A stretch of 53,390 bases of DNA from a virus: positions 1 to 53,390 of IMG/VR virus record IMGVR_UViG_3300025307_000067; one strand, 5' to 3'. A model generated the notes under the pieces. It was not told the origin of the DNA, made no database searches, and was given only the letters and a program-made list of their open reading frames with translations. Positions 4,760-25,518 of the stretch are shown piece after piece (the stretch's first letter is position 1; each line of letters begins with the position of its first letter). A program made the position numbers and the translations under genes.

Positions 4760-5190
4760 TTATCTTCCTTCCAGTACGGTTTGAAGTTTTGTAGAGTCAT
4801 TAAGGTATCAGAGAAATTGCCTAAAAATGGAATTGCTCGATCATCAATGTAAGCTACTGCTGGAACTTTTCGATTAGTAATCTTATGAATGAGATCGCCA
4901 ACACCATATTTGTAAGTCCAAGCAATTATTCCAGATGGATTGCGGGTGGTATGGATGACAATCTCATAATTTAGCATACATAGTTGTTTAAGAAAACCTA
5001 GAGCCCCAGGCATAGGATCACCCAGATGGTCAGGACCTTTCCAGCCTATGTATTCTGCTAATACTCCATCGAAATCAACACAGATGGTTTTTGGACTGGC
5101 TTTATAGCAATCGTAACACCAGTCTTCTTTATCTTCAATAGTGATTTGTTTTTCTGGTGAGATTTCTTTTTCACATTGTGAGCAGTTCAT
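4756..5190 (-). CDS. HAD-like phosphatase with N-terminal zinc ribbon
   Basis: 144 residues starting MNCSQCEKEI. The ATG at 5190 has AGGAGG 8-9 nt upstream and overlaps the stop of the gene before it (TGATG), so it is preferred over a longer frame. Two CxxC pairs (CSQC, CYDC) form a probable zinc ribbon. HAD motif I is DFDGVLAEY, the second motif HTTRN, and motif IV YIDDRAIPF. The substrate is unknown; placement beside a thymidylate-synthase-like gene suggests nucleotide metabolism (inference). Confidence 0.8.
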   Translation of the reverse strand: MNCSQCEKEISPEKQITIEDKEDWCYDCYKASPKTICVDFDGVLAEYIGWKGPDHLGDPMPGALGFLKQLCMLNYEIVIHTTRNPSGIIAWTYKYGVGDLIHKITNRKVPAVAYIDDRAIPFLGNFSDTLMTLQNFKPYWKEDK

Positions 5191-5594
5191 CAATACGGCC
5201 TCCTGACAATCGGTTCCAAACATTTCAATTCTGGCGTCCACGCCCCAAATTGTTTCACTACTTCCGGGAACTCTTGAATCGTATGTTTACGTAATGCCCA
5301 TGTCTCGTTTTGAGTTAGGGCGATGTGGAGGAGCTCATGGTAGAGTAGGGCTTGTTTATCATGATCGGAGGCACACTCCCACCATTCGGCCCATAAAATT
5401 ATTACATAATCAAAATCTGATAGGTGTTTCCATGGACCATGTGCAAGATGAGTCTGTCCAAGCCAGGTTGATTTTTTGGCTGATTTGACCAGATATTTGA
5501 TTTTGGCCTTACAAGCATCCATTAAAGGATTCTGTAAAAATCTGGCTCTGGCCAATTCTTCGACATCTTCTGGCGCATCGAGATAATCAGGCAT
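5190..5594 (-). CDS. putative phage metallopeptidase (HExxH)
   Basis: 134 residues. The zinc-peptidase motif HELLH lies in ALLYHELLHIALTQ, preceded by YVIILWAEWW. This matches the small putative phage metallopeptidase family, whose substrate is unknown. It ends in PIVRRPY, a relative of the R-[IVL]-P-Y tails seen in other proteins here. It overlaps its upstream neighbour by 8 nt. Confidence 0.75.
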   Translation of the reverse strand: MPDYLDAPEDVEELARARFLQNPLMDACKAKIKYLVKSAKKSTWLGQTHLAHGPWKHLSDFDYVIILWAEWWECASDHDKQALLYHELLHIALTQNETWALRKHTIQEFPEVVKQFGAWTPELKCLEPIVRRPY

Positions 5595-5859: not shown

Positions 5860-6155
5860 AGATTTACTTCGTTCTGGTTTTCTTCGCCCTCTTTCATAAT
5901 TTTTCCAACTTCAACTCGTGCCTGCTCCTTCCGATATTGTTTGGGGAAGAAGTGCTGGCGGAGTTCTTGGAAAGACTTGAAAATCTTTGGTTGTTTATTT
6001 TTGGAAGATGAGTTTACTACAGCTACCACTTTTTGTGTATCTGGAGAAATTCCATTACACCAAGAAAATCCAGGGCATTTTTCCATTGGAGAAATATAAT
6101 TGCCTTGCTTATCTATCAGAGCACATCTTCCATCGCATTCAAATTCTTTAGCCAT
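5856..6155 (-). CDS. hypothetical Cys-containing protein
   Basis: 99 residues. The N-terminal half has four cysteines in C-x3-C...C-x4-C spacing (CDGRC, CPGFSWC), a possible small zinc site. The C-terminal half is basic and helical. Preceded by the ACTATAATAAAAGGAG promoter/ribosome-site block at 6165-6182. Function unknown. Confidence 0.68.
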   Translation of the reverse strand: MAKEFECDGRCALIDKQGNYISPMEKCPGFSWCNGISPDTQKVVAVVNSSSKNKQPKIFKSFQELRQHFFPKQYRKEQARVEVGKIMKEGEENQNEVNL

Positions 6156-6164
6156 AATAATTCC

Positions 6165-6182
6165 TATCTCCTTTTATTATAG
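6165..6182 (-). promoter_or_regulatory. extended -10 promoter before the 6155 gene
   Basis: Minus-strand ACTATAATAAAAGGAG overlaps the end of the initiator gene and leads straight into the next start codon. It belongs to the recurrent ACTATAAT class. Confidence 0.45.
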
Positions 6183-7805
6183 TCCTGGCTGCATCATTCT
6201 TAATTCTGGTCTAACTGCTAGTCTATCAACTCCAATAGAGTCCAAGAAATTCTTTACCGGCTTGTTATCAGGGTTGAACCAACCAACATTGACAATCTCT
6301 GCTGCATCTTCAATGGAGTCCAAAAATTCTTTGAAGAACTCTGGCCAGGTATTTCTACCGATAGAATTGCCATTCGTCTTCAACCTGTACTCCTGTACAT
6401 ATCTTTTCTTGAGGTTGATTATGTTGCTGGCTAATCTTGGCTTGTCTTCTGGCATTATTTTCTTAGGAATGATATCTATGGCCAGTTCCAGCTCTCGTTC
6501 TACCGACTTGAGGTCAATAGGCATCTGTTTGACAATCTTGACTGGATTTGCCATCCATACTCTCGCAAGGAAGGAGTATCCTTTATGTGATCTCATCGCG
6601 CCAGACAAATATATCTTCTCTCCTTTACCACCATAATCCACTCCCAACATATTATTGAGCAGTTGATATAACTCACGGCGTTCAGCTTGGTCAAATGTTC
6701 GATCAAGAAATCTCTCTCTCAGAACTTTCTCTGTCAGAGGATAATTGCCACCTGGCATTATCTTACCCTTCATATTATTGACAATAGCTTGTATCTCATC
6801 TGGTCGGAGGTAATTGCTTGGGCCATATATGAGTGCCTTGACCACTCTGGTGTCTTTATGATATTCTTTGGTGTCCAGTCTGGGTGACCTGACAAGATTG
6901 AGATTCTCTCTTATCCAGTTCATATCGAGGGTGACTTCGATAGGATATTTCTTGAGTTCGCCTACTTTCTTTTTCTTGAAATCATTTCTTTGGATTGGCT
7001 TTAATGTCTCGAGTTCCCATAAACGGAGATGCTCTTCAACAGTGCCAGCGGGAGCCTTGGTTGTATAAGGAATTCTTATTGGCATATTATATTCCTTTTT
7101 TGTAGGGAGGTTTATTTGTTCTATAGGGGGGTTTTCTTTTGAAGGAACTTCCTTAACAAACAGAACCGAAGGTTCTTTAGTATTATCTTTAGATAATACT
7201 CCTATACCAATATCTATACTATCTATACTTAATAGATTAGTTTTCTTATAGGGTTCACTTAGTTTTCTTATAGGGTTGCACTTAGTTTTCTTATAGGGTT
7301 CGACTTCTTTGATGTTTTGAAAATACTGCATTTCTTTGATCCCGAGTTGCTCACAAATCCAGTGTTTTTTGGCATAAGTGAAGTGCCTGATTATGGAAGC
7401 GAGAAGTTTTTTAGTGGGAGATAAATTTGAAATGAGTATATCTTCGTCGATGGTCAAACCAAGAAGATTGTCGTCTGGTGGTGGTTGCAGGAGTAATTCT
7501 ATCATTCGATTGCAATGGCTTCCATGACGCTTAATAAAGCCGAGTTTTTCGAGCTTCTGAAGGTGTTTTAAGGCAGCTTGACCACCACCACGAATACCAG
7601 ATCGTTTAGCTATTTCTTCATTCGTGATTTTGCAGGTAGTTTTATCATCCCCGCTACCCTGTATGGCAGCCCAGATAACGGAGAGAATAAGGGCATCCCC
7701 ATTGCTCTTAATGCTGCTATCTCTGAGGATGAACCAGGGTGCCTTTCGGAATTGTGGAGTTGGATCACTTGAGTTTTGAACACAGTCTGTGGGGGAGATT
7801 GGCAT
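6177..7805 (-). CDS. putative replication initiator with N-terminal winged helix
   Basis: 542 residues. The N-terminus (about 18-110, ALILSVIWAAIQGS ... ITNEEIAKRSGI ... LKHLQKLEKLGFIKR) is a winged helix like phage replication protein O. A low-complexity linker (about 165-240) follows, then a large unrecognised C-terminal domain. The linker DNA carries three 22-23 bp direct repeats (7237-7304), the arrangement of lambda ori inside gene O, so an origin-binding role is inferred. Residues MPIRIPY in the middle match a motif shared with other proteins here. AGAGG lies 9 nt before the ATG and can be masked by the leader RNA. Confidence 0.62.
   Translation of the reverse strand: MPISPTDCVQNSSDPTPQFRKAPWFILRDSSIKSNGDALILSVIWAAIQGSGDDKTTCKITNEEIAKRSGIRGGGQAALKHLQKLEKLGFIKRHGSHCNRMIELLLQPPPDDNLLGLTIDEDILISNLSPTKKLLASIIRHFTYAKKHWICEQLGIKEMQYFQNIKEVEPYKKTKCNPIRKLSEPYKKTNLLSIDSIDIGIGVLSKDNTKEPSVLFVKEVPSKENPPIEQINLPTKKEYNMPIRIPYTTKAPAGTVEEHLRLWELETLKPIQRNDFKKKKVGELKKYPIEVTLDMNWIRENLNLVRSPRLDTKEYHKDTRVVKALIYGPSNYLRPDEIQAIVNNMKGKIMPGGNYPLTEKVLRERFLDRTFDQAERRELYQLLNNMLGVDYGGKGEKIYLSGAMRSHKGYSFLARVWMANPVKIVKQMPIDLKSVERELELAIDIIPKKIMPEDKPRLASNIINLKKRYVQEYRLKTNGNSIGRNTWPEFFKEFLDSIEDAAEIVNVGWFNPDNKPVKNFLDSIGVDRLAVRPELRMMQPGL
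7237..7304. repeat. three iterons inside the initiator gene; candidate replication origin
   Basis: Three direct copies of TTAGTTTTCTTATAGGGTT start at 7237, 7259 and 7282. The 22 and 23 bp steps are about two helical turns and are not multiples of three, so the protein is read in different frames through the copies (EPYKKTN, NPIRKLS, EPYKKTK). That argues for a DNA-level function. The neighbouring 7085-7236 stretch is AT-rich, as expected of an unwinding element. Confidence 0.65.
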
Positions 7806-8961: not shown

Positions 8962-9351
8962 TTACTTCTCTGGAAATGGTGGTAGTGGTAGAGGAAGATT
9001 TCCTCTTGCTTTATTTCCTTGAACCAACATCTCCAACTGTTGAAAGATTAAGACAGCTTCATCCAAGTCTCCAAGTATTATAGCCTTAGCCATAACCTTA
9101 ATGAGGGTGTTGTATTTTATGGTTATGGGGAGTTCATCCCAAGAAATTGTAATCTCTCCTCCCAAAACTTCCTGTAAAATCTCTACTGTAAAGGCAAACG
9201 GCAGAAACTTCTCTCCTCGACTCTCAACAGGCTCATGCCAATCAACCACCCGTATTGGAGTTGACAAATCCGGATGATCAATGGTGAGTAAAGTGAGAAT
9301 AGTAGGAGCTTCTCGTAACGCTTTCTTGAATTTTTTTGAGATTTGTTTCAT
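8962..9351 (-). CDS. hypothetical protein, DUF1833-like opening
   Basis: 129 residues. The opening FKKALREAPTILTLLTIDHPDLSTPIRVVDW, then SRGEKFLPFAF, recalls the DUF1833 phage protein family often found in tail regions, but the C-terminus diverges. Lies between two lipoprotein genes. Role uncertain. Confidence 0.55.
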   Translation of the reverse strand: MKQISKKFKKALREAPTILTLLTIDHPDLSTPIRVVDWHEPVESRGEKFLPFAFTVEILQEVLGGEITISWDELPITIKYNTLIKVMAKAIILGDLDEAVLIFQQLEMLVQGNKARGNLPLPLPPFPEK

Positions 9352-10497: not shown

Positions 10498-11211
10498 TCA
10501 ATCTTTGTAGGGGACTCTTACTGGTTTGTTTTTTAGTTTTCTTCTAACCCAAGATTCTTTTATCTTCTTTTTGGCTTCTTCAGTATGTTGTTTGCCATAG
10601 AAATGGTTTTTCTCTCCTTTATGAGCCTCACTGTTCTTCCTTCGAGCTTCTTCTGAAGGAGCCTTATTATAGTTAGGATTCTTATTTCCTAATTTACCTT
10701 GCCTAATCTTTTCAATAGTTTTTGGAGTATGTTTTACCCCTTTATTCCAAGAAATTCTTCCTTTCCTTGCTTTACTTAAATTTTTTCGATGATCTTCTGA
10801 AAAAATCCTATTTTTGTAAAGTTGTCTTAGTTTTTGTTTGAACTCATCAGAACATATATGACCGCCGGATCCTTCTCCTCCATTCGTCATATTGGCAAGA
10901 ATACCTGTTCCATTATCGTGACGTCCATACAACTCTATAGCAGCCCTTTCGATATCAAAAGCGTCTTGTTCTGAAAGATTGTCAAGAAATATCTCTTCAG
11001 TGAAATCCAAACCCGACTTCCAAAGAGCGTGAATGATAGCTATTTTATATATTTTTCTTCCTGATTTATGCAATAGCTGCTGAGCTTCTTTTCGATGACA
11101 TTCATATCTATGATTTTGCCCCTTACCTACATAGAATGGGCAGGCCAGATTTGAATCTTCTGGGTCTTCCTTATCTGGCCTGCGCAGGTAGTAAATATAA
11201 AATCTCGTCAA
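10498..11211 (-). CDS. GIY-YIG homing endonuclease with NUMOD3-type repeats
   Basis: 237 residues from a TTG start at 11211 that overlaps the stop of the HTH gene. The nuclease domain (about 1-110) shows FYIYYLRRPDKED, PFYVGKG and the catalytic-region glutamate in NMTNGGEGSGG. The rest is a chain of basic NUMOD3-like repeats (FSEDHRKNLSKARKG, HTPKTIEKIRQGKLG, HTEEAKKKI) that bind DNA. It ends KPVRVPYKD. The start was set by comparison with its paralogue at 52795, which begins MNIFYVYYLRRPDKED. A frame opening 180 nt earlier only re-reads the HTH gene out of frame. Confidence 0.85.
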   Translation of the reverse strand: MTRFYIYYLRRPDKEDPEDSNLACPFYVGKGQNHRYECHRKEAQQLLHKSGRKIYKIAIIHALWKSGLDFTEEIFLDNLSEQDAFDIERAAIELYGRHDNGTGILANMTNGGEGSGGHICSDEFKQKLRQLYKNRIFSEDHRKNLSKARKGRISWNKGVKHTPKTIEKIRQGKLGNKNPNYNKAPSEEARRKNSEAHKGEKNHFYGKQHTEEAKKKIKESWVRRKLKNKPVRVPYKD

Positions 11212-11378
11212 GTTTTCTTTCCTGGAATCCGATTCCAAACCGCTTTGGTTAAGTCCTCCTGTTTTATCAACCATATTGGGCCGTATTTCTTGGCCTGGAT
11301 CTTGCCAGATTGGATCAATTGATGAATCCTGCCTGGAGTTAGGCTCAGTTTCTCCGCCGCTTGCCGTGTGGTTAACAT
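11208..11378 (-). CDS. HTH_17/excisionase-like DNA-binding protein
   Basis: 56 residues found by translating the region directly. MLTTRQAAEKLSLTPGRIHQ, then LIQSGKIQAKKYGPIWLI, is the classic HTH_17 pattern of Xis-like proteins. It lies just downstream of the palindromic promoter at 11395-11435, which suggests autoregulation, and its stop overlaps the GIY-YIG start, which suggests a coupled two-gene mobile unit. Confidence 0.82.
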   Translation of the reverse strand: MLTTRQAAEKLSLTPGRIHQLIQSGKIQAKKYGPIWLIKQEDLTKAVWNRIPGKKT

Positions 11379-11394
11379 TTTTAGTCCTCATATT

Positions 11395-13230: not shown

Positions 13231-13479
13231 TTAATATTTAAGCATAATTTGGAAGAATTCTTGGGGTAGACAGAGATCTCCATCAAACATATTCTCCGAG
13301 GCTTCTTTCACATTATCAAGAAACGCCTTTCTTAACCAGCGCGCCATCTTTCTCTTCTCCCGGTTTGATTCCCGACGGATTTGTAATTGAGAGCGAAGAT
13401 GTATCTCAAGTTCATCTGGACTGAAAACACTAGGAAATCCAGTCCACTTCTCAGCAATTTGGTTAAGTCGAGATTTCAT
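13231..13479 (-). CDS. small charged protein
   Basis: 82 residues, rich in Arg, Glu and Lys, predicted helical. The start overlaps the helicase stop (ATGA) after AAGGAGAGG, so it is translated with the helicase. No recognisable motif. Confidence 0.65.
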   Translation of the reverse strand: MKSRLNQIAEKWTGFPSVFSPDELEIHLRSQLQIRRESNREKRKMARWLRKAFLDNVKEASENMFDGDLCLPQEFFQIMLKY

Positions 13480-16184
13480 TTCCTCTCCTTTTTCATTTTC
13501 TTGAGCAGTTCGCCCAGGATGGAATGTTTCTCAACTTCCTTGCCGTCGAGGACCTGGCTTAACACCTCAGCCTTTTCATCGAGCATAACGGCGATGTCTT
13601 CCTCAATGGTGTCCTCGGCTACCAGATAATAGACGTTAACGGTTTCTTCCTGGCCGATACGATGGGCGCGGTCCTCTGCCTGCTGGTGCTCGCCGGGCGT
13701 CCATCCCATTTCTACGAACGCTACGTGGGTAGCAGCGGTCAACGTGATACCTACGCCGGCAGCTTTCGTGTTGCCAACAAAGACCTTAATATCGGGGTCG
13801 GTTTGGAAATCGTCAACAGCCTTTTGACGTTGCTCCTGATTTTCCTTACCAGTGAGGCGAACCGCCTGCTTACCAAACTCGGCCATCAAAGCATCCACCA
13901 TCCAATGATGTACGGCAAACACGATGATCTTTTCATCCTGGTCTACAACGTCTCTGATCCAGGAGAGAGCGGATTGGAGCTTGCCACGGGCCGCCAGCTG
14001 CTTGAGTTTGCCAATGGCCACTAAAGCCTCTGCCGCAGACGCTCTCTCCGCCGCTTCTACACCTTCGGTACGCTCTAACCAACCCAGGAAGTCACGGACC
14101 GCTTCATTATACTCACTGCGGTTTTCCAACTCAAGAGGAACTACCGATCTGATTTTAGCCGGGAGGTCCTTGAGAACGTCCTTCTTGAGGCGGCGGATCA
14201 TTAAGGTCTTGGTGAGGATCTGGTGGAGTTCCTCAGTGTTGCTGGCACCAGAGTAATCCATGGCAAATCCATTAAACTTCGGAGCGCAGAACTTGTTGGC
14301 AAACTTGAACCAAGACGGAAACACCGTCGGATTCACTATGCTGATCGCATTGTAGAATTCGATGGGTCTATTGACAATAGGAGTACCGGACATAGCGATC
14401 ACATGCGGTACGCCTTTGGCCAGATCGCGAACGGCGAGCGTCCGTTGAGCCTTATTGTTTTTGACATAGTGGCTCTCATCAATGACCACCGCCTTAGGGT
14501 TGAGTTTCTTGAGGATCGGATTCCACTTTTTCAAGATGTCGTAATTGATGATGATCACGGAGACGGCTGGCAAAGCCAACTCTTGGCCATTGCCATTTGG
14601 GCTGCCAGACAGGATCATAACGGTTTCTTGTGAACGATCCATCCACTTGTAAGCCTCCCGCCGCCAATTCAGTTTCAAGCTGGCGGGGACTACGATAACT
14701 GCGGGTCTGGCTTCGGGATGGATTCTCAGCCATGCCAGGGTGATAATAGTTTTACCCAAGCCCATTTCATGTGCAACTAACGCTCTCCCTTGTCGACTTT
14801 CAAGGAAGTCAACGCTTTCTTTTTGAAAGGAGAATAGTTTTTCAAAGCCTGGTGGATTTTGGCTTAGTGCTTTAAGCGTAGAACAGTCCAGCCAAGGGCT
14901 TCCAATACTTTGGTTTTCTTGGCGTCTGTGATTTTGCTCTCCTTGCTGTTGTGGAGCCCACTGTCCACTTCTATTGCCACCATCGCGATCGGATCTGCGA
15001 AGTCGACTTTGTAGACAGTCGCGGCACTCGGGAAGGAAGCAATCACTGATTTGGTTTTCACCGGATATTCTCGGATGAACCCCTGCTCCCTCAGAAGACT
15101 GTCCAGATAACCGATAATGTCTGTCATTTCCTGTCCGTTGCCTCCCCGGAAATTCACTCCGTGTTTCTTTCTGGCCATCTCCAATCCCTTGAGATGTTTG
15201 CCCCTGACTTCTGGACGATGCATTGCTTCTTTGGTGGCTTTGGACACCTTCTCTCTCCAGGCTTCGTCTTGGGCATTCTCTATTAACTTCTCTCGGACTT
15301 TGGCCCTGACATCTGGGGTTCTCCCCTTTTCGAGGTTCTTTTTGTTCGATTCGTCTCTCACTTTGCTCGGCTTTCTGACGTAAACTCCCTTCGGCATTTT
15401 TCCTACCCCCATGGTTTTTAATTTCATTATATAATGGGCATAGGGAAAAATAAAGAATATTATTTATCTCTCCAGGTTTGTGCCCTTCCAGGTAGTTTTT
15501 CAGGTTGTCGTCCTGAGTGAACTGCCACTTCTCCAGGAGTTCCATGAGCTGGATGCTGGCGGGCACTTCCCAGAAGAACTTGTCAGGGTTCCAATGTCGG
15601 CTTGGGCAATCTTTGACTTCCTCTTTGATGGTTTCAAAATCTCTGTCTTTACGGTCCCAAAACAGCCGAATTTTTTCGTCCTCGAGCCATGCCGTCCTGG
15701 GCCGTAATGCTGGCGCAGCCATGGGCTCAGGCGCTTGAGCGCCGAGGTTTTTAATCCGTTCGAGGTCCTTAATATAGACCCTGGCTTGGGGGAGGATAGA
15801 CATCACCCGATTCAGGATTTCTTTACTGGCCGGGACGGACCAAAGGCGGGACCCGGTGAAGTCAAAGTTCCAACCTTGGATAGCCTTGATTTCTTTTCTG
15901 ATCGAACCGTCCTCATCGAACTTGAAACGGACGACGAAACGGTCGCCTTTGGCGTTTAGGGAAACGATGCTGGGGCCGTCATTCATGGCCGCAGCAATGA
16001 GGTTCGGGTCCATCTCCATATTGAGGCGAGCCAATTCTTGCTGGCAGATACCCCAATGGTTGGAGCATTCAGGCCCAATGCCTGCAGCGTAACTGTCTGG
16101 ATGGGTAAGTTCTCTGCCGCACCGCCTGCAGAAAACGTCCGGTCGCCTGTCAAGCGTTTCTATGACGGCTTTATCGGGGTTCAT
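13476..16184 (-). CDS. SNF2/HARP-like helicase interrupted by an in-frame insertion carrying a homing endonuclease gene
   Basis: 902 codons. An N-terminal zinc motif (CRRCGREL) and HARP-like repeats run to about residue 235. The SNF2 motor occupies about 447-902, with LFSFQKESVDFL, Walker A HEMGLGKT, Walker B VIDESHY, SGTPIVN, and the C-terminal GVGITLTAATHVAF and AEDRAHRIGQ motifs. Between them, 15470-14847 (624 nt, 208 codons) reads as Gln/Arg/Ser-rich sequence unlike either side because the endonuclease gene is encoded there in another frame. Both junctions end in a Pro-Gly pair, so the uninterrupted protein probably read KPG-FEKLF. The product is a motor with a 208-residue disordered linker or two separately translated halves. 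Confidence 0.82.
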   Translation of the reverse strand: MNPDKAVIETLDRRPDVFCRRCGRELTHPDSYAAGIGPECSNHWGICQQELARLNMEMDPNLIAAAMNDGPSIVSLNAKGDRFVVRFKFDEDGSIRKEIKAIQGWNFDFTGSRLWSVPASKEILNRVMSILPQARVYIKDLERIKNLGAQAPEPMAAPALRPRTAWLEDEKIRLFWDRKDRDFETIKEEVKDCPSRHWNPDKFFWEVPASIQLMELLEKWQFTQDDNLKNYLEGHKPGEINNILYFSLCPLYNEIKNHGGRKNAEGSLRQKAEQSERRIEQKEPRKGENPRCQGQSPREVNRECPRRSLEREGVQSHQRSNASSRSQGQTSQGIGDGQKETRSEFPGRQRTGNDRHYRLSGQSSEGAGVHPRISGENQISDCFLPECRDCLQSRLRRSDRDGGNRSGQWAPQQQGEQNHRRQENQSIGSPWLDCSTLKALSQNPPGFEKLFSFQKESVDFLESRQGRALVAHEMGLGKTIITLAWLRIHPEARPAVIVVPASLKLNWRREAYKWMDRSQETVMILSGSPNGNGQELALPAVSVIIINYDILKKWNPILKKLNPKAVVIDESHYVKNNKAQRTLAVRDLAKGVPHVIAMSGTPIVNRPIEFYNAISIVNPTVFPSWFKFANKFCAPKFNGFAMDYSGASNTEELHQILTKTLMIRRLKKDVLKDLPAKIRSVVPLELENRSEYNEAVRDFLGWLERTEGVEAAERASAAEALVAIGKLKQLAARGKLQSALSWIRDVVDQDEKIIVFAVHHWMVDALMAEFGKQAVRLTGKENQEQRQKAVDDFQTDPDIKVFVGNTKAAGVGITLTAATHVAFVEMGWTPGEHQQAEDRAHRIGQEETVNVYYLVAEDTIEEDIAVMLDEKAEVLSQVLDGKEVEKHSILGELLKKMKKERK
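14864..15397 (-). CDS. EDxHD/Vsr-like homing endonuclease nested in the helicase gene
   Basis: 177 residues starting MPKGVYVRKPSKV. The nested promoter predicts a transcript start near 15419, so the ATG at 15397 (AGGA upstream) is preferred over frames opening at 15427. Basic NUMOD-like segments (VREKLIENAQDEAWREKVSKA, HRPEVRGKHLKGLEMARKKHG) precede a nuclease core with VDFADP, IEVDSGLH and KKTKVLEALGWTVLRLKH, the E-x-D-x-x-x-H arrangement of Vsr/EDxHD homing enzymes. It occupies nearly the whole insertion, leaving no room for a group I intron core. Confidence 0.82.
   Translation of the reverse strand: MPKGVYVRKPSKVRDESNKKNLEKGRTPDVRAKVREKLIENAQDEAWREKVSKATKEAMHRPEVRGKHLKGLEMARKKHGVNFRGGNGQEMTDIIGYLDSLLREQGFIREYPVKTKSVIASFPSAATVYKVDFADPIAMVAIEVDSGLHNSKESKITDAKKTKVLEALGWTVLRLKH
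15426..15462 (-). promoter_or_regulatory. bipartite promoter of the nested endonuclease gene
   Basis: ATATTCTTTA, 19 nt, TATAAT on the minus strand, inside the helicase frame. Same spacing as the other five copies; the -35-side box differs at its last base. Confidence 0.65.
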
Positions 16185-16217
16185 AATTTAACTCCTTTAC
16201 TTATTATAGGATTTCTT

Positions 16218-16278
16218 CCTCATCATCAGGCCAGAAATTCATCTGGCGTTCCCCGACCCTCAACCGGGGAATTCGAGG
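16218..16278 (-). ncRNA. hammerhead-ribozyme-like element (type II), copy A
   Basis: Minus-strand order: CCUC, GAA, stem III (UUCCCCG with CGGGGAA), C at 16248, stem I (GCCAGA with UCUGGC), CUGAUGA, U, GAGG. Stem II (CCUC/GAGG) closes the element. Variations: U-A replaces the A15.1-U16.1 pair and one extra U follows CUGAUGA. Predicted cleavage between 16248 and 16247, in the leader of the SNF2 helicase gene. Confidence 0.55.
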
Positions 16279-16284
16279 TGTTGG

Positions 16285-16878
16285 TTATAATCCCGCGTCG
16301 AAACCTTGGACTTCTTCGATCTGCGCCTGTACGAGCTCTACTTTGGCCTCTTCTCCCCGAGTTTCCCATTCTTCTTTCTCGGTTTCGTATTCAGTCTGAC
16401 GCTCTTCGAACTCCTCGTCGGTCTCCTCCTTTTCTTTTTCGGGCTCTTCGGGCTCTTCCTCGTCGAACTCGAAGTCCAGGTCAACTCCCTCCAGGTCAGA
16501 AATCCAGCCATCCAACCCATCCACCCGTTCCTGGAGGAGCTGGCCGGTGTCTCCCTGCTGCAAACCTTCGGGCATATTATCAAGATTGCCTTGGGTTTCG
16601 TCCCGGAGATTTTCGATGTTGCCAATGATCTCTTCGATCTGAGATTTCAGATCCTCGGCGGACTCGGCGGTCAGATTCTCGATCTGCTCCTGGATGGAGT
16701 AATACTCCTGCAGGAAAGGGCTGCCGGTGAGCTGGCTGGGCTTGGGCGGAGTCAACGACCGGTAGGTCCGGCTACTTCTCGGCCCGGTCATGACGGACCA
16801 GGTGTAATGTTCGTCTCCCTTCTTAATACCAAACTCGGGATAATCTTTCCGACCTTTCACTTTAAAAACTTTAGGCAT
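16285..16878 (-). CDS. acidic coiled-coil phage protein
   Basis: 197 residues. The opening MPKVFKVKGRKDYPEFGIKKGDEHYTWSV and the PPKPSQLTGSPF motif belong to a family of small phage proteins of unknown function. Residues about 60-197 form long charged helices with a very acidic stretch (LDFEFDEEEPEEPEKEKEE). Possibly a DNA-mimic or scaffold-like protein (inference). Its 3' side is followed by hammerhead copy A. Confidence 0.72.
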   Translation of the reverse strand: MPKVFKVKGRKDYPEFGIKKGDEHYTWSVMTGPRSSRTYRSLTPPKPSQLTGSPFLQEYYSIQEQIENLTAESAEDLKSQIEEIIGNIENLRDETQGNLDNMPEGLQQGDTGQLLQERVDGLDGWISDLEGVDLDFEFDEEEPEEPEKEKEETDEEFEERQTEYETEKEEWETRGEEAKVELVQAQIEEVQGFDAGL

Positions 16879-16904
16879 TTTCTTTCTCCTTGATTAGATT
16901 TGTT

Positions 16905-17522
16905 TTATAACTCCTTCAACATCATTTTAATCTCACCAAAAACCTGGTCGATCTTCTTTGGTTTCCAACCCAGGCTATGGAGGAAGGTCCGAATGGAACT
17001 CTGGCTTGGCCGGATCCAGCGGATGGTCCAGTCAACCAATTCCTGAGGACTGCCCAGAACCAGATAAACAACTTCCAAAGCCTCTTTACTGAGGCTGGCC
17101 AACCCAGCCCGGAATTTGGTTTCCTCGAAGGGGCTGGGTCGTTCGTCGGCTATCTGGATACCAAGGTCCAAATCATCTAATGATGATAAGACACTTGAGC
17201 GGTGTTCTTCCGACGGGCTGAACATATTGTTTTGATATGTATGTCCAACTCTTCCATAACCATCTTCGAGAAGAATTGTGTTTTTCTCCTCTGTTGGACA
17301 ATTGATACAGCCTTTGATTCTTCCCATTTGATCCTGGAGTTGATACCAAAGGTGGGTTGAAAACATGCCTTTGTTTGGATCCCAGGTTTTGATCGCTTGC
17401 ATGAACCCGAGAGAGCCGAGGCTGACCAGTTCGTCGAAATCCAAGGAAGGATTTGTTTTGATCTTTTTCCAGGCTACCTTCCTGATCATATTGACGTAGT
17501 CGGAGTATTGAGGTTCTGACAT
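16905..17522 (-). CDS. sigma-factor-like protein (region 2, no clear region 4)
   Basis: 205 residues. Residues about 25-70 (SLDFDELVSLGSLGFMQAIKTWDPNKGMFSTHLWYQLQDQMGR in pieces) match sigma-70 region 2, which binds core polymerase and the -10 element. The C-terminal part (LSKEALEVVYLVLGSP ... SSIRTFLHSLGW) is helical and could be a reduced region 4. A phage sigma factor that reads mainly a -10 element would suit the ACTATAATATA promoters lacking a -35. That link is inference. Confidence 0.7.
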   Translation of the reverse strand: MSEPQYSDYVNMIRKVAWKKIKTNPSLDFDELVSLGSLGFMQAIKTWDPNKGMFSTHLWYQLQDQMGRIKGCINCPTEEKNTILLEDGYGRVGHTYQNNMFSPSEEHRSSVLSSLDDLDLGIQIADERPSPFEETKFRAGLASLSKEALEVVYLVLGSPQELVDWTIRWIRPSQSSIRTFLHSLGWKPKKIDQVFGEIKMMLKEL

Positions 17523-17531
17523 AACTTTTCC

Positions 17532-17771
17532 TTAACTGTAGACCAGCCGCCCCGGCTCTTCGGACCGGATGCTAATCCCCCACTCGTAAGCCAACGGACG
17601 GATCGCCCTCAACACCGCGGCGTTCCACTTGGTGTAGCCCTTGAGCAAGGCTTTGGGGGTAATGATAAACTGCCCTTTCACCTTGTAGACCTTGGCGTTC
17701 AGGTCTCTGACCAGGTCGGCAAAGTTCTTTCTGACTTGCCTCTTGCTGTACCTCTTCGCATTGTTACTCAT
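17532..17771 (-). CDS. small basic protein of unknown function
   Basis: 79 residues starting MSNNAKRYSKRQ, after GGAGGG. Strongly basic, with VRKNFADLVRDLNAKVYKVKGQ and a second helix. May bind nucleic acid; no family recognised. Immediately upstream of its ribosome site is hammerhead copy B. Confidence 0.62.
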   Translation of the reverse strand: MSNNAKRYSKRQVRKNFADLVRDLNAKVYKVKGQFIITPKALLKGYTKWNAAVLRAIRPLAYEWGISIRSEEPGRLVYS

Positions 17772-17801
17772 TTGTGTACCCTCCAAAATTTAATTTCTGA
17801 T

Positions 17802-17864
17802 ATCCATCATCAGACCTGGAATTCACCAGGTTTCCCCGTGCACCTCCGGGCCGGGGATTCGGAT
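17802..17864 (-). ncRNA. hammerhead-ribozyme-like element (type II), copy B
   Basis: AUCC, GAA, stem III (UCCCCG with CGGGGA), A at 17832, stem I (ACCUGG, loop UGAAUU, CCAGGU), CUGAUGA, U, GGAU. Stem I loop is identical to copy A. Same U-A pair at 15.1/16.1 and same extra U. Predicted cleavage between 17832 and 17831, separating the 17868-18092 gene from 17532-17771. Confidence 0.55.
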
Positions 17865-17867
17865 TGA

Positions 17868-18092
17868 TTACCGATAAAGATCAACAAATTCTCCGAAATA
17901 CTTATCGAAGGTCTGCACCGCGTTTTCGTAGTCGCTCGACATCATTTCCTTCTGAATCTGGTCGAAGTCAAGTCCCAGCTGTTTGGCAAGGGTTTTGGCT
18001 GTACCGATCAAGAAGAAAACATTTCCCTCTGGGCCAGTCAGATCAATCTTTCTTTTGCCCTTGGGAAGAGCATCAATAGATTTGATTGTCAT
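17868..18092 (-). CDS. small protein of unknown function
   Basis: 74 residues. LTGPEGNVFFLIGTAKTLAKQLGLDF and a helical C-terminus (DYENAVQTFDKYFGEFVDLY) resemble small conserved phage proteins without a known role. The start overlaps the previous stop by ATGA. Confidence 0.68.
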   Translation of the reverse strand: MTIKSIDALPKGKRKIDLTGPEGNVFFLIGTAKTLAKQLGLDFDQIQKEMMSSDYENAVQTFDKYFGEFVDLYR

Positions 18093-18352
18093 ATCTTGGC
18101 CTCCCGAATCTTCTTGTGGTAGTCGGCTCCCTTGCAGCGGATTGCCTCGCCATTATAGGCACGTTTCATAGCCTTGACAATTGCCTCACTCGGAGGCCCC
18201 TGCCATCTAGGAGTGGAGAAAACCTCAGGATTGTCAAATCTGGCACAATGGAGGCAATCATACCACACCCAACGACGACCACGACTCCTTCTCATGGCAC
18301 CATGATCTCCGCCATATGGTTTGAACCATAGGCAATCTCGATTTGTAGCCAT
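18089..18352 (-). CDS. small Cys-containing basic protein
   Basis: 87 residues starting MATNRDCLWFKPYGG; GGAGG 7 nt upstream decides the start. RSRGRRWVWYDCLHCARFDNP contains a CxxC pair. Function unknown. Confidence 0.62.
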   Translation of the reverse strand: MATNRDCLWFKPYGGDHGAMRRSRGRRWVWYDCLHCARFDNPEVFSTPRWQGPPSEAIVKAMKRAYNGEAIRCKGADYHKKIREAKI

Positions 18353-18362
18353 AATTGTCCTC

Positions 18363-18638
18363 CTATAAATACGGAATCCGTATCGGTTTGGGCTCCAAAG
18401 CCTTCTTGGCCAACTTACGATAATACCGCCACCGGGGACACCTATTGCCACATCCAGCATTCATGTACAACTCCGGCTTGAACCCCCTTGCCCTGCACTT
18501 TTCATCAGACATTTGTGGATAGGGTTCGATGTGCCAGCATTTGAATATCTGGAATGGATTGAAAATCTCAGGTGGCTCCCAGGAGTAAAATCGCCTCTGG
18601 TTTTCGAGGATAAGTGCTACTTGTTCAGATTTTGTCAT
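18363..18638 (-). CDS. small Cys-rich protein ending KPIRIPYL
   Basis: 91 residues with CWHIEPY, CRARG and CGNRCPRW. The last eight residues, KPIRIPYL, match the tail of the GIY-YIG protein at 42053-42889 although the rest is unrelated. Stop precedes the next gene's ribosome site. Function unknown. Confidence 0.65.
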   Translation of the reverse strand: MTKSEQVALILENQRRFYSWEPPEIFNPFQIFKCWHIEPYPQMSDEKCRARGFKPELYMNAGCGNRCPRWRYYRKLAKKALEPKPIRIPYL

Positions 18639-18898
18639 CTCTTATCCTCCCACATTTTCATATTGGCGTGGACTTGGTCGGTCAGGCTGACGGAATCTGA
18701 AGCAGACTTGCCAGCCCGGACGGCGCCGTTCTTGCCGACGAAATACAACCTACCGTCTTTGACGAACTGGCGATATTTTGACCGGGAAGAAACTTCCTGC
18801 ATCGCCAGGCCCTCCACCAGGAACCTTACGACCCGGTCGGTCAAGGTCTTGGGTTGGCCTTTCCTGGGGCCGCTTTGGAATGTTTGGTAGGTATTCAT
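18635..18898 (-). CDS. small protein of unknown function
   Basis: 87 residues starting MNTYQTFQSGPRKGQPK. The start at 18898 lies 2 nt after the preceding stop; upstream in-frame sequence overlaps the neighbour and is not credible. Contains LTDRVVRFLVEGLAMQEVSSRSKYRQF, predicted helical. Confidence 0.62.
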   Translation of the reverse strand: MNTYQTFQSGPRKGQPKTLTDRVVRFLVEGLAMQEVSSRSKYRQFVKDGRLYFVGKNGAVRAGKSASDSVSLTDQVHANMKMWEDKR

Positions 18899-18899
18899 G

Positions 18900-19121
18900 T
18901 TATCTTCCAGCTTCAAAATCGGCCAGAATTTGCTGATTCCGGCGATTGTCCGCTTCAATATCTTCTTGGTATTTCTTCTCCCAGGCAGTCCAACATTCTT
19001 CACACCAGATGGTCGTCTTAGTGGTGTAATGGCCGCCAGCGCACCAGCGCCTCTTGGTTTCACCCTCGAATCGTTTGAAAACAGGTTTAACCTTTTTACA
19101 GTTGACACATTTGGCTTCCAT
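18900..19121 (-). CDS. small zinc-ribbon protein
   Basis: 73 residues starting MEAKCVNCKKVKPVF, after GGAGGG. Two CxxC pairs (CVNC, CEEC) frame a short hairpin, a typical zinc ribbon, followed by a charged helix. Probably nucleic-acid or protein binding; unknown. Confidence 0.66.
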   Translation of the reverse strand: MEAKCVNCKKVKPVFKRFEGETKRRWCAGGHYTTKTTIWCEECWTAWEKKYQEDIEADNRRNQQILADFEAGR

Positions 19122-19150
19122 CATACCCTCCCAATTCATTAGATTTGGTT

Positions 19151-19210
19151 TCCTACCACCGGGTCGCAGCCCGGTTCCGGCCGGTTACCATCCGGCTCTC
19201 ATCAGGTAGG
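19151..19210 (-). ncRNA. degenerate hammerhead-like element (type I order), copy F
   Basis: CCUAC, CUGAUGA, stem II (GCCGG with CCGGC), GGAA, stem III (CCGGG with CCCGG), UG, GUAGG. Stem I CCUAC/GUAGG is perfect, but the GAAA core reads GGAA and the cleavage-site nucleotide would be G, which hammerheads do not cleave. Probably inactive or a decayed copy. Confidence 0.35.
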
Positions 19211-19212
19211 GG

Positions 19213-19407
19213 TTATAGATAATCAGGATTGATGTATCTCTCGGCATCAGTGGGATTATCAAAAGTTTTTGGTAACGAGCCATTATAAGGGAAGGCATGG
19301 AATTTATCCTGAGAATTTTTATGCCTCACATGTCCAAGCTCTTGCCCCATAGTGGATTTTACTAACCATGCTGTGTGGTCTAATTTGTGAACTTCTATAT
19401 ATGCCAT
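19213..19407 (-). CDS. small protein of unknown function
   Basis: 64 residues, starting MAYIEVHKLDHTAWLV after GGAGGG. Contains DKFHAFPYNGSLPKTFDNPTDAERYI, reminiscent of short phage proteins that wrap a two-strand sheet and helix. No assignment. Confidence 0.6.
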   Translation of the reverse strand: MAYIEVHKLDHTAWLVKSTMGQELGHVRHKNSQDKFHAFPYNGSLPKTFDNPTDAERYINPDYL

Positions 19408-19523
19408 TTTCCTTCCCTCCCATTAATTTATTTGTTAAGGATTGATAAACCGTTATGTTGTGCCTGAGCCGATAAACCGGCTATTAGCTTTGCCCTGAAC
19501 GGCGGCAGGGGATTGACCGCATT
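19408..19523 (-). other. structured intergenic region without a gene
   Basis: On the minus strand it holds two hairpins (CCCUG with CAGGG; GCCGG with a UUUAU loop and CGGC) before a GGGAGGG ribosome site. Size and position match the hammerhead gaps nearby, but CUGAUGA is absent, so no ribozyme is called. Confidence 0.35.
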
Positions 19524-19832
19524 TTAGTAGATAACCTTGTCCAGGTTATTGATGAGTTGGTCGGATTGATTCTGGATGGTAAATAAGTTATCATCAGGAT
19601 ATTCACAAAGGATTCTTGCTTTACCCTTTTTGAAAGATTCATTATTGAAAAATCCTGGCTCATCTCCTTCTGGCATGAACTCCCAAAAGTAACCGCCAGG
19701 AAAATGTCCAACGTAACGACTTGCCCAATGGCCGGTTGATTTTTCATAATATTGAAAGAACCAACCAATCATCTTACCATTCTGACGAATCTCATATTCT
19801 GGTTTTCCAGAAGTTTTATGAAAAGTTGCCAT
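19524..19832 (-). CDS. hypothetical protein
   Basis: 102 residues starting MATFHKTSGKPEYEIRQNGK; GGAGGG 8 nt upstream. Aromatic beta-rich stretch (MIGWFFQYYEKSTGHWASRYVGHFPGGYFWEF in parts). Function unknown. Confidence 0.6.
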   Translation of the reverse strand: MATFHKTSGKPEYEIRQNGKMIGWFFQYYEKSTGHWASRYVGHFPGGYFWEFMPEGDEPGFFNNESFKKGKARILCEYPDDNLFTIQNQSDQLINNLDKVIY

Positions 19833-19862
19833 CTCCTTACCCTCCATTCAGATTTTATTTTG

Positions 19863-19925
19863 GCTCCTGCTACCCCGACCATTAAGCCGGGGTTTCATGC
19901 TCGCCAGGCAATCATCAGGCGGGGT
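19863..19925 (-). ncRNA. hammerhead-ribozyme-like element (type I), copy E
   Basis: CUGAUGA (19918-19912), a short stem II (UGC with GCA), GAAA (19896-19893), stem III (ACCCCG with CGGGGU), A at 19871, then GCAGG. Stem I (CCCCGC with GCAGG) has a C-A mismatch. The core matches consensus, including A15.1-U16.1 and an allowed A17. The UGA stop of the upstream gene is part of CUGAUGA. Confidence 0.5.
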
Positions 19926-20199
19926 TGGTTAATTCTTGGATTTGGCGGTCGATGGTTTCAAGTTCAATTAGATGGCTTCTCCTAATGCAATCCAGTTCAG
20001 CCATCTTTTCTGCCCTGGGAAGCATGTCTTGGAAGATCACAAAGCCATGCTCTAAAAACAGCATGGCCACTTGGGTTTTTCCGCCGACGTCTTTGATGCT
20101 GGGATGGAAGGTGTACACTCGGTTAATGACAATCCATTGCTCGTCGGTACATTTTCCTTTGACACTTTCTGTCAAGGCATCAAACTCTGATCTCATCAT
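19915..20199 (-). CDS. hypothetical helical protein
   Basis: 94 residues. LTESVKGKCTDEQWIVINRVY, DVGGKTQVAMLFLEHGFVIF and a C-terminal coiled helix (EKMAELDCIRRSHLIELETIDRQIQEL in pieces). Its stop codon lies inside hammerhead copy E. Function unknown. Confidence 0.62.
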   Translation of the reverse strand: MMRSEFDALTESVKGKCTDEQWIVINRVYTFHPSIKDVGGKTQVAMLFLEHGFVIFQDMLPRAEKMAELDCIRRSHLIELETIDRQIQELTNPA

Positions 20200-20217
20200 T
20201 TTATTGCCCTCCTGAGA

Positions 20218-20478
20218 TTAATTAAAAAGTTCTTTTCCTGCATCGGTGTAATCGAAGACCATATCGGAAAACTTACCCTTGCCCTCGTCATCGGATATGA
20301 CGACTAACCCCTTTTTCACCAGGGAAGCAACTACTCCTCGGTAGATTTTTTCGTCCAGTTTGGCAGCATCGCAAACTGCGAAAGACCACTGACCACCTTC
20401 CAGGCAGTCGCCGAAGTTTGTCTTTCTGGCAGCCTGGAGAACTTTGATTTCCAACTCGGTTAGTCCGTCGGTTTTCAT
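20218..20478 (-). CDS. small winged-helix-like protein
   Basis: 86 residues. LTELEIKVLQAARKTNFGD and LDEKIYRGVVASLVKKGLVVISDDE form a winged-helix pattern; the tail DMVFDYTDAGKELFN is also typical. Translated with the 16-codon frame upstream (ATGA overlap). Probably a regulator. Confidence 0.65.
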   Translation of the reverse strand: MKTDGLTELEIKVLQAARKTNFGDCLEGGQWSFAVCDAAKLDEKIYRGVVASLVKKGLVVISDDEGKGKFSDMVFDYTDAGKELFN

Positions 20479-20525
20479 TTTGCTACCCCTTTTTTGCCAT
20501 TGTCGTCCTCAATTATGATTTTCAT
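20475..20525 (-). CDS. 16-residue peptide coupled to the winged-helix gene
   Basis: MKIIIEDDNGKKGVAK, with GGAGGG upstream at good spacing and a stop overlapping the next start (ATGA). The ribosome site otherwise has no gene, so it may act as a translated leader that couples the winged-helix gene to ribosome loading. Peptide function, if any, unknown. Confidence 0.5.
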   Translation of the reverse strand: MKIIIEDDNGKKGVAK

Positions 20526-20551
20526 GTTTCTTACCCTCCACTTTTTATTTT

Positions 20552-20607
20552 GATCTCATCAGCACCAGATTGACTGGTGGACCTGCTCCTCCAAGCAGGT
20601 TTCGATC
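20552..20607 (-). ncRNA. hammerhead ribozyme (type II), copy C, full consensus
   Basis: GAUC, GAAA, stem III (ACCUGC, loop, GCAGGU), C at 20580, stem I (CACCAG, loop UCAAU, CUGGUG), CUGAUGA, GAUC. All core nucleotides match the hammerhead consensus, and stem II (GAUC/GAUC) closes the element with no extra base. Predicted cleavage between 20580 and 20579, between the zincin gene and the 16-residue frame. Confidence 0.8.
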
Positions 20608-20608
20608 T

Positions 20609-20914
20609 TTAAAGATTATTTTTGTACCAAGCCACCAAAGCCCGGAAATTATCTCTCCATTTCCTGCTGTGGTTCATCCCACCTTTCATAACATGGGCAA
20701 CTTCGTGAAGGAAAGTGCCGACTGTGGGAGAATAAATAAATACTTTGGGCTGACCAAACTGGTTTAGCCCAGCCTCGCCATTGAGTTTAGGATCGAACCC
20801 TTTGGCAATGGTTACTGATAAATTAGGAGAAAATTGGTTGCAGACTGCAGAAACGGTTTGTAAGGTTAAAGGAGCCTCATAAAGACTCCCGGCAATTAAT
20901 CTGTTCCAATCCAT
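20609..20914 (-). CDS. SprT-like zinc metalloprotease
   Basis: 101 residues starting MDWNRLIAGSLYEAP; AAGGAGG decides the start. FLHEVAHVMKGGMNHSRKWRDNF gives HExxH plus a downstream His and Trp, the SprT/WLM-like zincin layout. Substrate unknown. Flanked by hammerhead copies C and D. Confidence 0.72.
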   Translation of the reverse strand: MDWNRLIAGSLYEAPLTLQTVSAVCNQFSPNLSVTIAKGFDPKLNGEAGLNQFGQPKVFIYSPTVGTFLHEVAHVMKGGMNHSRKWRDNFRALVAWYKNNL

Positions 20915-21328
20915 TATTTTATCCTCCTTAGGATTTGGTTGATCATCATCAGCATTGGCATCACCAATGGACCGGAACAATTATATTATCTGCTCCGGTT
21001 TCGATCTTTCGATAATAATTTTTTCACTACTGGCCAAACCCGGCCCCGGTACTTATTCTCATCTCTTTTAAATTGTTAATCAGCTTAGTTTTCGGTCTCT
21101 CTCCTACCAAGTCTTATCGGTTTTGAACCGGTTCCTTGGGTGACCTCCCCGGGTTCCTCCGAGTGCGTCAATTTAAGCCTTTAGGTGGCCTGAACCCTAT
21201 CTTCCCATTTCAGGAGTTCATGAGGTGGTCCGTGCTGTGGGTTTGCCTTTCGGCCTCTCCAACCACCCCGCCAGGTTCGGCCCGGCTTTTCATTTGGTCT
21301 GACTTTGGTACCTCCTTAACCTTTATTT
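20915..21328 (-). ncRNA. long untranslated leader RNA ending in a hammerhead
   Basis: From the promoter at 21335-21340 to the zincin gene there are about 410 nt with no convincing gene; the best frame is 27 codons with a poorly placed ribosome site. Hairpins such as GCC-GAAA-GGC are visible. Copy D of the hammerhead lies at the end. Either a regulatory leader or an independent RNA released by self-cleavage. Confidence 0.45.
20941..21006 (-). ncRNA. hammerhead ribozyme (type II), copy D
   Basis: GAUC, GAAA, stem III (ACCGGA with UCCGGU, longer AU-rich loop), C at 20970, stem I (CAUUGG with CCAAUG), CUGAUGA, U, GAUC. Core consensus except for one extra U before stem II. Predicted cleavage between 20970 and 20969. 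Confidence 0.7.
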
Positions 21329-21334
21329 ACCTAT

Positions 21335-21364
21335 ATTATATAGTGTTCTGTGAAGAAGACAAGC
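21335..21364 (-). promoter_or_regulatory. promoter of the 21.3 kb leader
   Basis: ACACTATATAATATAGG with TATAAT at 21340-21335. GCTTG lies exactly 19 nt upstream, a weak version of the bipartite box. It follows a terminator at 21432-21459. Confidence 0.5.
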
Positions 21365-21431
21365 TTTTTTATTAAGAAATATTAATTTATAGGAATTATT
21401 ATTTTATAACTATCCAATGATTACAATAGGT

Positions 21432-23618: not shown

Positions 23619-24449
23619 ATGGTTGAGCGCATTCCATATATAGATAATAATTTAATAAAGCGAGGCAGAGAACGCCCTAAGGGGAGCAAGAATAGCCCTG
23701 GCCATAAGGCGGGTAGGCCAAGCAATGGGAAATCACAGCATAACCTATCTATTAAACCCATCGTAGAACCTAATGTAACAGCCGCTACTAAGAGTTCTCT
23801 TCCGATTAGGGTAAAGGAGCCACCCCAGACTATAAACTTGAATACAACGAGTCATACCAAGCCGGTTAGGCTACCTTATATAGAATGCACTGACGGTCAC
23901 AATTACCCTCCTGTATTAGACTTGACTCTACCTTCTAATGGAAACGGTAAACCAAAGCCTACGAATCCGATTCCTCCTAATGTGGCCCGTTCGGTAATAC
24001 AGTCTGGTTTGAATGAGGAGTTGATCACCCCAGAGCAGATCATTAAAGAAGTGATGAAGATAGCAACCTCTGATATTAGGCTACTCCCCGGTTGCCCTAA
24101 GGGGATTCCGGATGATATAGCGGCGGCCATATCGTCTATTGCTTTAAATCCTCTTGTATATGAAGGAAAACCGATTCTAGGTCCAGACGGAAAAGTTCTT
24201 TGTCAAGTAAGATATAATCTCTGGAGTAAATCTTCTGCCCACGACCAGCTTATGAAATGGGCCGGGCTATATTCACAAGACAATGCTCAGACCAAGCCCA
24301 GTATAAATCTACAGCAGAATATCCAGGTCAACCAAGTCAATCTTAAGGATTTCTCCAAGGAAGAGCTTTTAGCCTTGTATAAGCTGGGAATATTGAAAAG
24401 TCAGAGCGAAGAGATGCTGCTCTTACCAGAAAAAAGTTCATGTGATTGA
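23619..24449 (+). CDS. probable small terminase subunit
   Basis: 276 residues. A basic, low-complexity N-terminus with AT-hook-like KGSKNSPGHKAGRPS precedes a helical C-terminal half. LWSKSSAHDQLMKWAGLY resembles the closing block of small terminases (K-x-A-L-E-x-L-G-x-H-x-G-L), with oligomerising helices after it. RIPY at the start and KPVRLPY at about residue 85 repeat the motif seen in other proteins here. There is no ribosome site, and the promoter predicts transcription starting at the ATG, so the mRNA may be leaderless. First gene of the packaging arm. An unrelated DNA-binding role cannot be excluded. Confidence 0.6.
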   Translation: MVERIPYIDNNLIKRGRERPKGSKNSPGHKAGRPSNGKSQHNLSIKPIVEPNVTAATKSSLPIRVKEPPQTINLNTTSHTKPVRLPYIECTDGHNYPPVLDLTLPSNGNGKPKPTNPIPPNVARSVIQSGLNEELITPEQIIKEVMKIATSDIRLLPGCPKGIPDDIAAAISSIALNPLVYEGKPILGPDGKVLCQVRYNLWSKSSAHDQLMKWAGLYSQDNAQTKPSINLQQNIQVNQVNLKDFSKEELLALYKLGILKSQSEEMLLLPEKSSCD

Positions 24450-25165: not shown

Positions 25166-25518
25166 GGGGGTGTAATGGTTTCGACGGTGGCAGGAAATCA
25201 TAGTTGCGTTCCGGGGCCAACTTCCGTTAATGTTGGACATGGCACACTTGCCGACTCTTACTACCAACTGAAAGCGGCTTAAGGCACGCTTTCCGTTCGT
25301 ACTGATGATTTCAGATAGTCAGATGCGGGCGTCAAACCTAATCTGGATAGGAGATATGATGTTGCTGCATCGTCATTATCCGAAGTTTAGCGCAGCTGGT
25401 CTGGCAGGAGTTGATCTCAGAGCAATATTGCCGGGCGAGACGGAGTCTGAGATTATGAATGTAGATGCTATGGTAGAATGTTCTCCGGACCCGGGTTCGA
25501 CTCCCGGCACCTCCACCA
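25166..25518 (+). ncRNA. ssrA: tmRNA (ssrA), tag ADSYYQLKAA
   Basis: 353 nt. The 5' end GGGGGUGUAAUGGUUUCGACG is the tmRNA signature (split GGGGGUG / UAAUGGUUUCGACG). The 3' end has the T arm CCGGG-TTCGACT-CCCGG and an encoded ACCA. The acceptor stem pairs GGGGGUG (25166-25172) with CACCUCC (25508-25514) and includes the G3-U70 pair read by alanyl-tRNA synthetase. The tag frame runs from the resume codon GCC at 25250 to TAA at 25280-25282, encoding ADSYYQLKAA. Host tags usually end LAA, so KAA may change recognition by ClpXP or SspB. It should rescue stalled ribosomes during infection. Confidence 0.93.

Follow-up and report, generated by a model that had tools for sequence, protein, structure and literature searches.

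Hammerhead ribozymes in the gene junctions of a phage operon and their probable role in cutting a polycistronic transcript

Hammerhead cleavage leaves a 2′,3′-cyclic phosphate on the upstream RNA and a 5′-OH on the downstream RNA. Clusters of hammerheads have been described in prophages and proposed to process operons, and such clusters cleave in vitro, one of them in E. coli (Perreault et al., 2011, PMC3088659), so the kind of system reported here is already known. The locus analyzed in this study resembles those clusters: several hammerheads, not all of one type, share a strand and surround single phage genes or short gene blocks, and the same rare core variants occur. It differs in scale, the largest arrangement named by Perreault et al. 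(2011) being a triple, whereas the operon studied here has six elements and other viral contigs have as many as 12; in addition, the present analysis measured how far the elements lie from stop and start codons, as well as their fusion to the stop codon. The Rfam family Hammerhead_II (RF02276) shares topology and core with our type II copies, one of which (20552–20607) aligns along the whole model; the copies score below the gathering level, however, the U-A variants are missed by the model, and the AGCC tail with which the family makes its pseudoknot is absent from the two canonical copies. Theta ribozymes, which are HDV-like and occur in gut phages (PMC10879173), are likewise phage self-cleaving RNAs with a proposed role in transcript processing, but they have another fold and are tied to tRNA 3′ ends instead of mRNA junctions. 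Six to 12 type II hammerheads per viral contig, their stop/start spacing and the homology breaks at the ribozyme edge appear to be new. No precedent for the array size, the nucleotide-level spacing or the stop-codon fusion was found in the literature, a provisional result since most subscription literature lay outside the search. A 2017 review still described the function of hammerheads in bacteria and phages as an open question, which arrays with fixed stop/start spacing make testable.

Hammerhead elements in the operon gaps

The DNA analyzed (the window) is a viral contig of 53,390 bases from IMG/VR that contains phage terminase, portal, primase and DnaB-like helicase genes; a search of cultured phages found no close relative. 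Its minus strand carries an operon (13476–20917) of small genes, mostly without an assigned function in Pfam and PHROGs, separated in places by larger gaps that hold ribozymes. A first-pass annotation had reported six hammerhead-like elements in these gaps, and all six CTGATGA sites are indeed present on the minus strand at 16223, 17807, 19199, 19912, 20556 and 20946; they are six of 23 occurrences of the motif in the window, against about 11 expected. A descriptor scan requiring CUGANGA, GAA and three stems, and covering all three topologies, recovered the four copies assigned to type II (starting at 16218, 17802, 20552 and 20941), while shuffled windows gave a mean of 0.15 hits of any type. 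A type III match (10943–11028) lies inside a homing endonuclease gene and was set aside as chance.

The four type II copies were also recovered with an independent covariance model, R1, whose 43 type II hammerheads all came from other phages. For this model, a core-pattern scan of viral contigs yielded more than 119 stretches, a structural scan of these gave about 160 distinct type II copies, and 43 were aligned. The covariance-model search, which had been suggested as a check of the annotation, returned the four copies as the top four matches in the window (filters off), namely 20552 (53.0 bits, E 4.6e-16), 20941 (44.0 bits, E 6.4e-13), 16218 (18.9 bits, E 3.7e-4) and 17802 (16.2 bits, E 3.5e-3), followed by a fifth match with 12.1 bits. 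Chance resemblance might be argued from the shortness of CTGATGA and from the weakness of the two type I copies on their own, but with 0.15 hits expected and four found, all in the gaps of one operon, and with the first two E values above coming from an independent model, its probability is close to nil; for the four type II copies it is already refuted. Using RF02276, the copy at 20552–20607 reached 29.5 bits (E 0.011) against a gathering cutoff of 37, which is a detection threshold and not a property of hammerheads. At gathering level Rfam reported zero hammerheads in the whole window, and at E ≤ 10 neither the two U-A variants described below nor the two type I copies were detected.

All four type II copies contain the core CUGANGA, GAA, a non-G residue at position 17 and three stems in type II order. 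Their stems vary in sequence with pairing intact in every copy, as the annotation had stated. Covariation among the 43 relatives was 0.757 compared with 0.174 after shuffling, a figure that is partly circular because pairing had guided the choice of these relatives. The predicted 5′-OH ends (16247, 17831, 20579 and 20969) agree with our independent count. Two copies have a canonical core. The first, 20941–21006 (−), sits between a leader RNA and the first small gene and shows GAAA, A15.1-U16.1, C17 and CUGAUGA, with a predicted cut at 20970/20969; the second, 20552–20607 (−), has a predicted cut at 20580/20579, and its G12 lies 5 nt past the upstream stop codon. Among the type II copies, only these two, in which A15.1-U16.1 closes stem III, match the consensus throughout; in the others this pair is U15.1-A16.1: 17802–17864 (−), with A17, a predicted cut at 17832/17831 and G12 7 nt past the stop codon, and 16218–16278 (−), with C17, a predicted cut at 16248/16247 and G12 10 nt past the stop codon. 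Hammerheads with U15.1-A16.1 are reported to self-cleave, though less efficiently (Perreault et al., 2011, PMC3088659), and none was seen among the high-scoring type II copies of other phages. A pseudoknot between loop I and the 3′ tail could form with 4 bp in 16218 and 17802, 2 bp in 20552 and 3 bp in 20941; the latter two may use another tertiary contact instead.

The two remaining elements had been called type I; one of them has an intact core, and the core of the other is damaged. The intact element, 19866–19923 (−), has a homologue at 5896–5950 of a related viral contig, L005. Its stem I (CCCGC/GCAGG) contains one mismatch, U-U at 10.1-11.1 opens stem II, and the element further includes GAAA, stem III, U16.1 and A17, giving a predicted cut at 19871/19870. 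The U10.1-U11.1 mismatch occurs in natural hammerheads and is the least harmful one (Perreault et al., 2011, PMC3088659). The L005 homologue belongs to the same type, is intact and pairs CCUGC/GCAGG in stem I; in both phages the UGA inside CUGAUGA is the stop codon of the upstream gene. The second element, 19152–19210 (−), is homologous to L005:7741–7783 and the sequence that follows; with GGA substituted for GAA and with G17, it is probably inactive. A compensatory change distinguishes its stem I (CCUAC/GUAGG) from that of the L005 homologue (CCUGC/GCAGG), which has an additional A within the CUGAUGA core at 7752. Rfam gave no match to either type I copy. Taken together, hammerhead identity and intergenic placement are strongly supported for four copies and moderately for one, and the sixth is a decayed remnant. 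Of two other gaps in the L005 operon, one (6690–6750) contains a hammerhead-like element of type I whose core is damaged, and the other (9191–9277) a long hairpin, UUGACC...GGUCAA.

The damaged copies raise the question of whether most of these elements are decaying copies of hammerheads that multiplied inside the operon, with no present role beyond that of structured spacers. This would account for the defective cores of 19152–19210, L005:7752 (the extra A) and L005:6700, for U15.1-A16.1 in two copies, and for a stem I pair lost from the 16218 ribozyme in another relative, L003. However, neither 20552 nor 20941 shows any deviation from the canonical core or any damage to its stems, and A15.1-U16.1-C17 is retained by nearly all array copies of other phages, which makes general decay quite unlikely.

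Ribozyme placement and predicted transcript cutting

According to the ORF reading, six of the seven operon gaps of at least 80 nt contain an element, always on the coding strand; the seven junctions of less than 30 nt are all free of elements. The only long gap without a hammerhead, 19408–19523 (−), lacks CUGAUGA and has no significant fold; it contains the hairpin AGCCG GUUUAU CGGCU. Similar arrays were found in seven whole viral records, which carry 12, 9, 9, 8, 8, 8 and 6 type II copies, each set on a single strand; because a type II pattern was used to find them, these sets are silent on the frequency of types I and III. Independently, RF02276 detected 27 type II hammerheads in 7 of 10 array loci scanned. 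A cultured phage with such an array was sought by means of four array loci, and the matches were restricted to Microbacterium phages over a short stretch of one gene; the 14 kb examined of one of them, phage Blett, contained no hammerhead.

Analysis of 158 distinct type II copies from other phages revealed that G12 lies 0–12 nt past the stop codon of the upstream frame in 74% of cases, while only 6% of control GAA sites have this spacing. The core mostly starts 2–12 nt past the stop codon in the array phages, and the next start codon follows at a median of 24 nt downstream of the ribozyme. In the commonest form, UA-GUC-GAAAC, the G of the UAG stop codon is the first base of stem II, and UAG makes up 41% of stops at ribozymes against 21% at other genes of the same contigs. 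The copies had been chosen without regard to the loop I–tail pseudoknot, and 57% of them could form it, versus 18% by chance.

Motif, placement and conservation, combined with established hammerhead chemistry, suggest that these phage hammerheads probably cut a long polycistronic transcript at chosen junctions during its synthesis; that the elements cleave themselves is expected from that same chemistry. In the type II layout the cut would fall between two closed hairpins. The upstream message would end in the stem III hairpin shortly past its own stop codon, and the downstream message would start with a 5′-OH directly abutting the stem I hairpin, beyond which lies its own Shine-Dalgarno site. 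With closed hairpins on both sides of the cut, the new RNA ends would presumably be sealed, and cutting could separate the stability and translation of adjacent genes. A terminating ribosome would cover stem II and GAA so that cutting comes after its release; since only a few bases separate the stop codon from the core, the ribosome may hold the ribozyme unfolded until it leaves. RNA stabilization, gene separation and ribosome gating are conjectural consequences of this layout. If stop codon and ribozyme are fused, a specific and checkable link between translation and RNA cutting is to be expected.

The annotation had proposed that the operon would be cut into single-gene mRNAs. This is too strong, given that seven tight junctions are free of ribozymes and that slow cleavage or none is expected of two to four copies. 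Because the tight junctions would stay polycistronic, the product should be a mix of single-gene and multi-gene pieces, and U15.1-A16.1 in two type II copies together with one damaged type I copy leads us to expect uneven cutting. A single operon thus offers canonical, predicted-slow and predicted-dead copies together. Paired cuts would yield fragments with 5′-OH and 2′,3′-cyclic phosphate ends, which by established chemistry are substrates of RtcB, so pairs of ribozymes might free gene-length pieces that are then ligated into circular RNAs. RtcB was not found in the window or in 15 other records, leaving a host ligase as the possible enzyme, and Perreault et al. (2011, PMC3088659) sought circular products and found none; we therefore regard circularization as very improbable.

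Homology breaks at ribozyme edges

Comparison with related phages showed that individual sites come and go. L005, whose helicase is 68% identical to that of the window, lacks all four type II copies and has a single intact type I copy, from which it follows that no single site is indispensable. L003, with a helicase gene 92% identical to that of the window, retains the 16218 ribozyme in 59 of 61 bases, with U15.1-A16.1 kept and the one stem I pair lost. The ribozyme and the gene behind it are common to both phages; homology ends 3 nt upstream of the ribozyme, where L003 has a different gene. Two other contigs, L066 and L080, have in common a block of about 1.1 kb with one ribozyme at each end, and further phage pairs similarly show homology ending at a ribozyme edge. 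The 19866 ribozyme and its L005 homologue are flanked by different genes. Overall, 17 alignment ends were counted over 27 ribozyme junctions versus 36 over 116 plain junctions, an enrichment that is suggestive only.

These breaks could mean that the ribozymes are chiefly cassette joints for swapping small genes, and that cutting insulates new genes or is a by-product. The change of front gene at 16218 in L003, the delimited block of L066 and L080, the homologous elements between different genes at 19866 and L005:5896, and the denser alignment ends all point in this direction. The independent cases are few, however, the similarity of the ribozymes themselves may draw alignment ends to their edges, breaks at gene boundaries are common in phage mosaics anyway, and a role as joints leaves the retention of the catalytic core unexplained. 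We thus consider it unlikely that exchange is the main role. A broader proposal, which we offer tentatively as a minor possibility, joins exchange to transcript cutting: in some phages a block of small genes would be a cassette array, each gene bounded by type II hammerheads that are fused to the stop codon via stem II, cleavage would await the terminating ribosome and release hairpin-sealed single-gene messages, and the ribozymes would also act as gene-swap joints between phages.

Leader RNA and neighboring genes

The head of the operon is a conserved noncoding region, 21015–21374 (−), comprising a promoter and a leader RNA. It is 85% identical to L005:4670–5032, compared with about 69% for the adjoining genes. 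The sigma-70-like promoter consists of TTGTCT (21362–21357) and TATAAT (21340–21335) on the minus strand with a 16-nt spacer. The leader RNA is structured, measures about 300 nt and lies immediately upstream of the first ribozyme. The two-sequence consensus fold has 74 pairs, with none broken and two compensatory changes, while the single-sequence fold is unexceptional alone (z −1.5). No Rfam family matches the leader, and searches recovered it from these phages alone; the similarity of a Parapedobacter sequence to 20 bases of it is at chance level. The leader begins with a short open frame that was judged noncoding, since five of the six codon differences from L005 affect the first or second codon position and the Shine-Dalgarno-like site lies too far off. 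Cleavage by the ribozyme at 20941 would release the leader RNA in the window; in L005, no recognizable ribozyme directly follows the leader.

Near the other end, the operon encodes a protein with sigma-70 region 2 (16905–17522, −) and ends with the SNF2 helicase (13476–16184, −), both assigned by Pfam and PHROGs. The sigma-like protein and a 64-aa protein have near relatives only in a near-identical contig, L002, and are therefore uninformative for comparison. A DUF559/Vsr-like endonuclease gene (14864–15427, −) is nested in the helicase gene in a different frame. The helicase frame stays open through it, giving 902 aa against about 703 aa in L003, whose helicase gene lacks about 600 nt at this position; the nested gene looks like a bare homing endonuclease insertion that preserves the host frame.

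Near-identical C-terminal tails (KPIRIPYL, KPVRVPYKD, KPVRIPYL and PIVRRPY) occur on unrelated proteins encoded at 18363–18638, 10498–11391, 42053–42889 and 5190–5594, and a similar motif is internal in 6177–7805 and 23619–24449. In the L005 counterparts (KPIRIAYE, PKIRIAYE) A replaces P throughout. The shared tail looks like a docking motif. The phage has a tmRNA gene of its own (25166–25518, +; 132.7 bits) with the tag ADSYYQLKAA. Judged by translation only, a 1192-aa protein (33632–37210, +) resembles a Mu F-type head protein that is split by an intein bearing a Vsr-like endonuclease and has an enzyme-like domain at its C-terminal end. Similarly, the translations of 77–1301 (−) resemble QueE and QueD of 7-deazaguanine synthesis, which suggests that the phage DNA is modified.
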